Assembly: GCA_021818985.1 (NCBI GenBank) | Contig: JAKASO010000006.1 | Span: forward strand, 1-64,000 | Origin: a bacterium | GTDB taxonomy: Bacteria; SZUA-79; Acidulodesulfobacterales; Acidulodesulfobacteraceae | Direction: 5' to 3' | Length of the DNA stretch: 64,000 bases | Shown here: piece by piece, positions 8,158-35,458 of the stretch | Numbering within the stretch: the first letter of the stretch is position 1 | Layout of the letters: every line of letters starts with the position of its first letter | Notes under the pieces: model-generated | What the model saw: only the letters and a program-made list of their open reading frames with translations | Told to the model about the DNA's origin: nothing | Database searches by the model: none | Position numbers and translations under genes: made by a program

Positions 8158-8650
8158 TTTTAATTTAATTCTACCGCCTCGAAGTCCTAAAAATCCTTTT
8201 CCATACTATATCTATTATATCTACTATATCTATATGATGTAGATACCATGTTATATTTATAAAATATAAATGACAAAATATAAATGACATAAAATATAAA
8301 TGCTGGATTCCGGCATGGTCATCGAGTAAATATTACTATCCTGCCTATAAAATAGGCATATATTGTTAATAAATTCATTCTGATTAATTTATAGACATAC
8401 ATATTTATATTGGTGATATATATAATATTTAATAAAATCAATAACTTTCAAATATGGCATTTTAATTGCATTAAACTTAAATAAAATTAAATAAAATAAT
8501 TTCTAAAAAAATAAATTCTAAATTTTTATGTTTTTATATTTCATAGATATTCTCTTAAAGAGTAAAGAAAAATGTTTTAACAAATTTAAAAGCATGTTTA
8601 AAAACATTGGGTTCGTAATATTTATACCAAATATTATACCGGGAGATATT
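8158..8650. other. AT-rich intergenic region between kdpB and the barrel protein gene
   Basis: About 490 bases without a convincing gene. It holds three direct copies of AAAATATAAATG (starts 8261, 8275, 8291) and a small palindrome GCCTAT-AAA-ATAGGC at 8343-8357, which has no T run after it and might be an operator. The 41 codons upstream of 8651 are open in the frame of the barrel gene but read as non-secretory leader, and a better start exists at 8651. No clear promoter is evident against the A/T background. Confidence 0.4.
8261..8302. repeat. Three short direct repeats
   Basis: AAAATATAAATG is repeated at 8261-8272, 8275-8286 and 8291-8302, the first two followed by AC. Unit spacing is 14 and 16 bases. 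They may be regulatory for the downstream outer-membrane gene or just low-complexity expansion in an A/T-rich spacer. Confidence 0.35.
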
Positions 8651-14470: not shown

Positions 14471-14566
14471 TGGCGGAGAGAGAGGGATTCGAACCCTCGG
14501 TACATCTTTTATGGACGTACATTCGCTTAGCAGGCGAACGCCTTCGACCAACTCGGCCATCTCTCC
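14471..14566 (-). tRNA. tRNA-Ser(GCU)
   Basis: Read on the minus strand, the sequence begins GGAGAGATGGCCGAG and ends GAGGGTTCGAATCCCTC, then TCTCTCC, discriminator G and an encoded CCA (14471-14473). The acceptor stem GGAGAGA/TCTCTCC is perfect. The anticodon loop CTGCTAA gives anticodon GCU (14529-14531 on the + strand). A long variable arm (TACGTCC...GATGTA) is typical of serine tRNAs. Length 96 nt including CCA. Confidence 0.97.
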
Positions 14567-16985: not shown

Positions 16986-17030
16986 ATGCGCAAAAATAGT
17001 AAAGAAAATATTAAAAACATAAAAATATAA
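16986..17030 (+). CDS. Possible 14-residue leader peptide
   Basis: A 14-codon ORF (MRKNSKENIK start, rich in Lys, Asn and Ile) with an excellent ribosome binding site, GGAGGG at 16974-16979, six bases before the ATG. It ends just before a leader hairpin and 76 bases ahead of the zinc-ribbon gene. The good start signal is unusual for such a short frame, so it may be a translated leader affecting the hairpin, or chance. No known family. Confidence 0.3.
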   Translation: MRKNSKENIKNIKI

Positions 17031-17031
17031 A

Positions 17032-17098
17032 AACATATGTTCACAATATTATATATTATTACATAGTATAGCTATAGTATAGCGAACATTATATGGAG
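17032..17098 (+). promoter_or_regulatory. Leader hairpin directly ahead of a ribosome binding site (copy 1)
   Basis: ATGTTCAC (17037-17044) and GCGAACAT (17082-17089) form an inverted repeat with one mismatch. The right arm is followed at once by TATAT and the GGAGAGG ribosome binding site of the 17107 gene. The same arrangement (AACATAT-left arm, right arm-TATAT-RBS) recurs at 35034-35090, where the arms read ATATTCAC/GTGAATAT, so a G-C pair here is replaced by A-T there. This looks like a conserved cis-element acting on translation, or a dyad operator. Confidence 0.45.
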
Positions 17099-17106
17099 AG
17101 GTTGTT

Positions 17107-17619
17107 ATGATAAAGCGCGAATTTTCCAGAGTAAAGAGGCAGCAGGCTGATGACTTAACGGATCCTTATAAAACCGCCCTTGAATACAAGGAACTATCGG
17201 TTTGCAGGAGATGCCGCAGTATATATCATGATAAAAGATGGTCTATTGATGAGAAGCTTTATAAGTCTTTATTGAAAGATGCGGGGAAGGTTAATTATAC
17301 GCTTTGCCCCGCATGCCAAAAAATTCAAACCGGTTATGTGGAGGGCGTGGTTGAGCTTGAAGGCGATTTTTTGTTTAAACACAAAGAAGATATTCTTAAT
17401 TTAATTAACAATACGGAAAAAAGGGCAAATTATATAGATCCTCTTGAGAAGATTATCAAAATTGACATAGATGATCAAAATGAAAAGATAATCTTAACTA
17501 CGACAAGCGAAAATCTCGCCCAGAGGATTGGAAAAAATCTGGAAAAAGCATATAAAGGCAGCGTCGAATATTCTTTTTCGAAGGAAGACAGAATGGCAAG
17601 GGTTTACTGGGTTAGATAA
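17107..17619 (+). CDS. Zinc-ribbon protein, BCAM0308/NMD3-like
   Basis: A 170-residue protein with a two-knuckle zinc ribbon: CRRCRSIYHDKRW at residues 33-45 and CPACQKIQTGY near 68-78. The C-terminal half (about 100-170) is an alpha/beta domain with a segment like RNA-binding NMD3 N-terminal relatives. Related proteins are annotated BCAM0308 family and occur in stress-associated gene groups. The biochemical role is unknown. It is preceded by GGAGAGG and a leader hairpin, and a phosphoribosyltransferase gene follows 96 bases later. Confidence 0.65.
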   Translation: MIKREFSRVKRQQADDLTDPYKTALEYKELSVCRRCRSIYHDKRWSIDEKLYKSLLKDAGKVNYTLCPACQKIQTGYVEGVVELEGDFLFKHKEDILNLINNTEKRANYIDPLEKIIKIDIDDQNEKIILTTTSENLAQRIGKNLEKAYKGSVEYSFSKEDRMARVYWVR

Positions 17620-34902: not shown

Positions 34903-35033
34903 CGCATGATACCAAAAATTACTGCCGGCAATTTTGGGCGATATATCCGTATTTATTTTTAAATAACAATAGTATATAATCTTATTCATATATTATATAG
35001 TAAATAAATTAATAATATTTTAACAAATTTAAA

Positions 35034-35090
35034 AACATATATTCACGATACTTATTTATATTTAATTTATGGTGAATATTATATCAGGGG
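35034..35090 (+). promoter_or_regulatory. Leader hairpin directly ahead of a ribosome binding site (copy 2)
   Basis: ATATTCAC (35039-35046) and GTGAATAT (35072-35079) form a perfect 8-base inverted repeat. The right arm is followed by TATAT and CAGGGGG, the ribosome binding site of the gene at 35096. It mirrors copy 1 at 17032-17098: same AACATAT flank on the left, same TATAT-RBS on the right, similar arm distance (about 35 bases), with a changed base pair in the arm. Confidence 0.45.
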
Positions 35091-35095
35091 GTAGA

Positions 35096-35458
35096 ATGGG
35101 TAAATTAATTCTGTTGATTTTAGCCGTCTTTTTTAGTATTAGCGCAGTATCTTCCACTGCATTTGCAGTGGGAAGTTTGTCTGGCAATGCGCCGGCGGCC
35201 ACGGCACTATTCCAATACAAAAAAGGTCTTGGGGCGATGCACGGAAAGTATTACTATACGGCGCTGCAGCATTTTCAAAAGGCCATTATAATAAATCCGC
35301 ATTTTGCGCGGGCTTGGGCACTTATGGGGGTAGCTCTGCATAAGCTCGGTTTTCCGTCTTTAGCAATAGTAAGTATGCAAAAAGCTATAAAATACAACCC
35401 TAAACTGTTATGGGCAAAAAATGATTTGAAACGGTATATTTCTTCTCCGCGCCGCTAA
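35096..35458 (+). CDS. Small exported TPR protein
   Basis: A 120-residue protein. The start at 35096 is preferred since GGGGG lies 6 bases upstream and it gives a regular signal peptide (MGKLILLILAVFF, cleavage near AFA). The mature part has two to three TPR units: KKGLGAMHGKYYYTALQHFQKA, then ARAWALMGVALHKLGFPSLA and MQKAIKYNP. It would act as a periplasmic interaction protein. Function otherwise unknown. It carries the leader hairpin (copy 2) and is followed at 11 bases by a nucleotidyltransferase gene. Confidence 0.7.
   Translation: MGKLILLILAVFFSISAVSSTAFAVGSLSGNAPAATALFQYKKGLGAMHGKYYYTALQHFQKAIIINPHFARAWALMGVALHKLGFPSLAIVSMQKAIKYNPKLLWAKNDLKRYISSPRR

Follow-up and report, generated by a model that had tools for sequence, protein, structure and literature searches.

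An uncatalogued hairpin family just upstream of ribosome-binding sites in a clade of uncultivated bacteria

The 64,000-nucleotide stretch of DNA that we analyzed (the window) contains two members of a hairpin family that had not been catalogued before. In a single group of uncultivated bacteria, hairpins of this family precede at least 29 genes. The core of the family is ATRTTCAY, a loop of 9-42 nt, RTGARYAT and TATAnCnGGAG, followed by a start codon. The stem has 8 bp and is A/U-rich, and the first and last bases of the loop are conserved (RAUA..UAYA). A search of Rfam 15 found only a tRNA in the window (14474-14566) and no match at E <= 0.5 in nine leader loci. Judging from the sequences, we lean toward the view that these hairpins are specific to the clade and transcribed as part of 5' UTRs, and that each would serve as a cis-acting, general-purpose expression leader that is mobile between genes.

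Both hairpins in the window are on the forward strand. Hairpin 1 (model match 17028-17100, E = 8.7e-10 in its own genome) has the left arm ATGTTCAC (17037-17044), an A/T-rich loop of 37 nt with some self-pairing (17045-17081), the right arm GCGAACAT (17082-17089), and the conserved flank TATAT plus the Shine-Dalgarno (SD) sequence GGAGAGG (17090-17101). The gene behind it encodes an NMD3-family zinc-ribbon protein of 170 aa (17107-17619; Pfam NMD3, E = 3.5e-9). Hairpin 2 (model match 35030-35090, E = 1.7e-9) has the left arm ATATTCAC (35039-35046), a loop of 25 nt (35047-35071), the right arm GTGAATAT (35072-35079), and the flank TATATC plus the SD sequence AGGGGG (35080-35091). It precedes the gene for an exported TPR protein of 120 aa (35096-35458; Pfam TPR_2, E = 4.8e-9), and the block TTTTAACAAATTTAAA upstream of it (35018-35033) is common to the glnB leader and others in the same genome. 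The mechanical ORF of the TPR gene takes as its start an in-frame ATG next to the right arm of hairpin 2 (35069); the start after the SD (35096, with a signal peptide) is likelier.

The initial annotation had described two hairpins, each followed by TATAT, a purine-rich ribosome binding site and an ATG, and we found this layout in both places (ATG at 17107 and 35096). It is beyond chance: when the window was simulated 300 times with an order-3 Markov model, strict matches averaged 0.00 and arm-only matches 0.01 per 64 kb, versus the 2 observed. The proposed pairing of the arms stood, except that the seventh pair of hairpin 1 is an A.C mismatch (TTCAC versus GCGAA), which had been missed. The loops, given as about 35 bases, are actually 37 and 25 nt and are among the longest in the family; most copies have 9-13 nt. 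The supposed conserved flank AACATAT turned out not to be general, and is replaced by TTAACAAAT in many copies. A weak third candidate on the forward strand (8599-8645; E of 0.08 and 1.4 with models R2 and R1) has differing arms (ATTGG .. CCAAAT) but the same upstream block, 85% identical to that of the glnB leader over 59 nt, and a ATATTATACCGGGAG flank; the gene behind it encodes a 466-aa exported protein.

The source genome (1.62 Mb, 89 contigs) contains at least eight strong copies, six of them outside the window. A pattern search of this genome found two further copies and its reversed-pattern control found none. A covariance model (R1) built from seven hand-inspected copies recovered all seven plus an eighth, new copy with E <= 8e-7, and the next match had an E of 1.4; E-values for the eight copies ranged from 3e-11 to 8e-7. 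The eighth copy, which had no part in building R1, precedes the PII gene (glnB). Genes downstream of the eight copies encode the NMD3-family zinc ribbon, the TPR protein, a SAM methyltransferase, an exported DsrE-like protein (an assignment slightly below the Pfam cut-off), an old-yellow-enzyme (OYE)-type oxidoreductase, AmtB, DJ-1/PfpI and PII. There are two weaker candidates in this genome, one of which is the 8599-8645 site. The genome has two glnB-amtB pairs; the leader is before glnB in one and between glnB and amtB in the other (L016/L093, L040/L094).

Copies are also present in relatives. We compared 30 genomes of the phylum, all of one family, and found at least 34 strong copies in at least 10 of them (model R2, E < 1e-4), with 13 in a single genome, G015. 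Further copies in the genome and its relatives, which the initial annotation had said to look for, were thus found in both. These counts are lower bounds, because scoring covered the top 25-150 candidates of each genome, and the model E-values are rough. Among the candidates scored, most genomes of the clade have no copy or one. The strict pattern gave no true copies in the 30 relatives, only a GC-rich inverted repeat of G007. This is a separate dispersed repeat, ATATTCACCTGCGTCAAGGGC..GCAGGTGAATAT, in six copies (L020, L023-L027); its arms have ATATTCAC in common with the leader family and are otherwise GC-rich. A match before ftsZ in G031 (L048) was discarded as low complexity. In G001 (L154, C1:640150-640550) there is a perfect right half, GTGAACATTATACCAGGAG, with an unclear left arm, before the gene for an exported protein; it is a decayed or half copy.

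The family appears to be restricted to this clade. Among the candidates scored in 212 genomes outside the phylum, none was a copy at E < 1e-4. The two matches below 0.01 (E of 3.6e-4 and 1.2e-3) are at about the rate expected by chance over 212 genomes, given that the E-values are rough. One of the two, before an rnfB-like gene in G202, contains the exact string GTGAATATTATACCAGGAG, and may be due to chance or rare transfer; the site (ATATTCACCTATAGTGAATATTATACCAGGAGGATGCTATG on contig C121, L165/L166) has a TnpB-like remnant and an IS transposase ahead of it. Across 84,980 species genomes, the exact pattern had seven matches, all in three metagenome-assembled genomes (HSP2.bin5, LSA5.bin79 and SKS5.bin53), and these appear to be our G008, G015 and G009, by identical coordinates or sequences. 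Judging from the sample names and gene content, the clade may be the acid-mine group Ca. Acidulodesulfobacterales (PMC6776010). Plasmids gave no match. Viral contigs gave three matches to one identical sequence, which is followed by neither a start codon nor an ORF inside 25 nt and has surroundings that are not leader-like, and we rejected these as chance.

The hairpin has a fixed place and orientation relative to genes. Twenty-nine of the 34 strong copies are directly before an ORF on the same strand. The other five are three inner units of a tandem array, a copy at a contig end, and an orphan without a gene. None of the 29 gene-adjacent copies is antisense. The SD sequence follows the right arm by 6-8 nt in most copies. 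The downstream genes are unrelated, and include those for PII, AmtB, MerA, ExbB, DJ-1/PfpI, OYE and others.

Pairing in the stem is conserved by compensatory changes, both among copies and among orthologous leaders. Counts from alignment A4, itself fitted to the structure of the model, are inflated by related copies; across its 28 distinct rows, 97.8% of pair cells were standard and five pairs had changed on both sides. None of 500 shuffles reached the observed pairing values, and sliding the partner by 1-3 columns lowered pairing to 24-56%. RNAalifold, predicting freely from the same alignment, gave the same eight pairs, four of them compensated. Examples of paired arms are ATATTCAT..ATGAATAT, ATGTTTAC..GTAAACAT, ATGTTCGC..GCGAACAT and GTGTTCAT..ATGAACAT. 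We checked orthologous leaders for changes that would break the stem, and found that compensatory changes keep it. Arm changes in merA leaders are coupled (CAT/ATG in G017, CGC/GCG in G034 and CAT/GTG in G015), and exbB leaders have TTCG/CGAA in G001, G012, G017 and G031 versus TTCAT/GTGAA in G015. One pair is broken in the G004 merA leader (A.C), and the G035 merA hairpin appears degenerate.

In most predicted folds the hairpin leaves the SD sequence free. This was so in 11 of 12 folds, two of which have marginal 2-bp pairing inside the SD; the minimum-energy fold of the OYE leader has a different structure in which the SD is paired. The stem alone is weak, about -5 to -12 kcal/mol in most copies, and several z-scores are ordinary.

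Leaders of merA genes indicate where the hairpin lies relative to a promoter, and are the best sign that it is transcribed. A MerR-type promoter, with a near-perfect dyad between -35 and -10 boxes that are 19-20 bp apart (read by eye), precedes merA in G034, G014, G040, G005, G009, G015 and others. The G034 promoter is TTGACC-20-TAAAAT with the dyad ACCTTATACC AA GGTATAAGGT, and the hairpin starts about 29 nt downstream of the -10 box. With the promoter upstream of it, the hairpin should be in the G034 transcript. This promoter, with the bases that follow it, recurs before merA in G014, G040 and G005, where it runs into another leader without the hairpin, and so the hairpin and the promoter are separable. 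Because most genomes have at most one copy and many orthologous merA leaders lack the hairpin, it is non-essential for those genes. Across the loci before the mercuric-reductase-like gene (L101-L105, L107, L108, L110), the conserved promoter TTGACATTATACctaaGTATAAGGTGTACAAT occurs both with and without the hairpin. We rejected a reading of the MKKIKMNVKGMTCEHC gene as a copper ATPase; with HMA and pyridine nucleotide-disulphide oxidoreductase domains, its product is mercuric-reductase-like.

Based on these results, we favor a general leader that would act in cis on the mRNA, after transcription. We do so because the downstream genes have no common theme, the loop is free in length, and the SD is free in 11 of 12 folds. 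The most likely mode of action is that the hairpin shields the leader from 5'-dependent decay and keeps the ribosome-binding site open, with the SD accessible.

The main rival is a translational operator or target: a single RNA-binding protein or small RNA would recognize the hairpin and the edges of its loop, and so control a post-transcriptional regulon. It is the main rival because the loop edges are conserved as well as the stem: most short-loop copies have RAUAMUUAYA. The SD is 6-8 nt from the hairpin, and the genes include those for PII/AmtB and for redox and detoxification proteins. However, the loops of 18-42 nt in the source genome conserve their edges alone, and the downstream genes lack a common theme and vary among genomes. 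We consider a shared bound regulator unlikely, though it deserves to be taken seriously.

A second alternative, which the initial annotation had offered beside a cis-acting translational element, is a DNA dyad operator for one transcription factor. In its favor are the symmetry of the arms (ATGTTCAC..GTGAACAT) and the near-constant spacer of 10 nt seen in most of the relatives' copies, and a symmetric DNA site is also expected to give coupled changes in its arms. However, the start-to-start distances of the arms in the source genome alone are 17, 17, 21, 26, 29, 33, 45 and 50 bp, without helical phasing; the arms vary inside one genome (TTCAC, TTCAT and TTTAC in G015); the distance to the SD is near-constant; and the G034 merA site is downstream of its MerR-type promoter. 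The mispairs bear on this as well. RNA from the gene strand tolerates G-U but not A-C, whereas a DNA dyad would show both equally. Confident copies had 16 G-U versus 3 A-C mispairs on the gene strand, and about 12 versus 3 after related copies were merged by eye (P = 0.018, from small counts of related copies). The excess of G-U therefore favors gene-strand RNA. Spacing and position make an operator less likely, and we regard it as quite improbable. Loops of 9-42 nt, the predominance of G-U mispairs and the position of the G034 merA hairpin downstream of a promoter all favor the transcribed-RNA option. The hairpin is most likely a transcribed 5'-UTR element and not an operator, and it may act on translation, as the initial annotation proposed.

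Near-identical upstream regions are found before non-homologous genes. The amtB and pfpI leaders of the source genome are 92.7% identical over 96 bp. The leader of an isochorismatase gene in G008 matches the pfpI leader at 82% over 175 bp, across different genera, and the match ends at the SD; a G008 copy at a contig end, with its gene out of view, matches pfpI at 80% over 220 bp. Some copies thus sit in a unit of 110-220 bp that ends at the SD and is common to unrelated genes across genera. The order in the full unit is an SD-like AAGGAGG, a terminator-like CCGTCTTTCTTGCTTTT, an A/T-rich block ending in TTTAACAAAATTAATCAAATTAACAAAT, the hairpin, and TATACCAGGAG, such that an SD-like motif (GGAGG) is at both edges. 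A 146-bp search with the unit found mostly hairpin copies, along with some partial ones. The hairpin and the upstream block also occur apart: the methyltransferase copy is 44 nt behind the preceding gene, without the upstream block, and the upstream block is present in G009 (L148) with the hairpin missing. The amtB copy sits between glnB and amtB. Like the merA leaders, these three cases point to a hairpin that is probably transcribed.

The family seems to have been passed between genes as a complete leader, ready for use. Recombination would carry the hairpin between unrelated genes, with the copied unit ending at the SD, and the upstream A/T-rich block (probably a promoter) and the terminator-like segment would often travel with it. 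The SD-like edges, and the 112-bp tandem repeats of G015 that join at the SD-like motif, make recombination at SD sequences an attractive, if unproven, route. More tentatively, the hairpin and SD together may be a module that moves among genes and genera through recombination at ribosome binding sites, a portable post-transcriptional expression cassette independent of the promoter; we hold this stronger form to be possible, with more doubt than confidence. One tandem array in G015 (C20:39020-39401, L052/L087) has four tandem leader units at a spacing of about 112 bp before the gene for a 68-aa HMA-domain protein, and the three units farther from that gene have no gene of their own.

A third alternative is a selfish, non-autonomous repeat of the MITE, REPIN or PATE type; its hairpin would be a signal for a transposase, and genes would tolerate it upstream. 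The sharp ends of the dispersed 110-220 bp units, the G015 arrays, the orphan copy without a gene and the SD-like GGAGG at both edges would all fit such an element. Against it, orientation and a nearly constant distance to the start codon are common to 29 of the 34 strong copies, and the stem has compensatory changes in orthologous leaders. Additionally, hairpins are found that lack the remainder of the unit (methyltransferase, merA), as is a block that lacks the hairpin (L148), and there were no copies in plasmids and no convincing ones in viral contigs. Orientation and conserved pairing make a purely selfish repeat less likely, and we give it little credence. We rejected two further readings: the arms are not a sigma-70 promoter (GTTCAC as -35, TATA.. 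as -10), with a distance that varies from 17 to 50 bp, nor integron attC sites (arms plus a variable middle), which have a GTTRRRY / RYYYAAC core that is absent here.

The transcribed leader that we favor resembles several known systems in part. Correia Repeat Enclosed Elements (CREE) of Neisseria are likewise short repeats dispersed before unrelated genes in one clade, can carry promoters, and have inverted repeats that form mRNA hairpins affecting the fate of the mRNA; one copy lies between a native promoter and its genes, like the G034 merA hairpin (PMC2649163). In CREE the inverted repeats are terminal, in an element of mostly 104-157 bp with an IS-like target duplication, and some copies disrupt genes (PMC2649163), whereas the hairpin described here is at the 3' end of its unit, always in the direction of the gene and fixed to the SD. 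We saw no sequence relation between CREE and this family. To our knowledge, REPINs have no fixed position relative to start codons. They are like the family in having two inverted short sequences with a variable spacer, forming hairpins in ssDNA or RNA and occurring in several copies per genome, and they are copied by RAYT transposases (PMC8049555).

Known mobile regulatory repeats carry promoters, or have hairpins at the ends of the element. Mobile promoters in prokaryotes were reportedly described by Matus-Garcia et al. (2012) and van Passel et al. (2014), both cited in PMC8049555. They are near-identical upstream regions of unrelated genes that spread by duplication or transfer, a feature in common with the present family, but the invariant part here is a base-paired leader beside the SD and the upstream block is optional. 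The mRNA-stabilizing 5' stem-loops of ompA, papA and aprE (cited in PMC3997798) are also short, upstream of an accessible SD and independent of the gene; they are individual leaders, whereas here a sequence family recurs before many genes. If our reading is true, signals for translation or mRNA stability, beyond promoters, are traded among unrelated genes. The merA leaders of sister genomes, with the same promoter and with or without the hairpin, are a natural comparison. For these organisms, known from metagenome assemblies, the sequence-defined family and its covariance model can be used on public metatranscriptomes.

G015 also contains a long array of an 8-bp unit, AATTAACA, broken by a run of N (L147, C37:11200-11900). 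A stretch resembling this unit, AATTAACAAAT, is in the upstream block of the leader.
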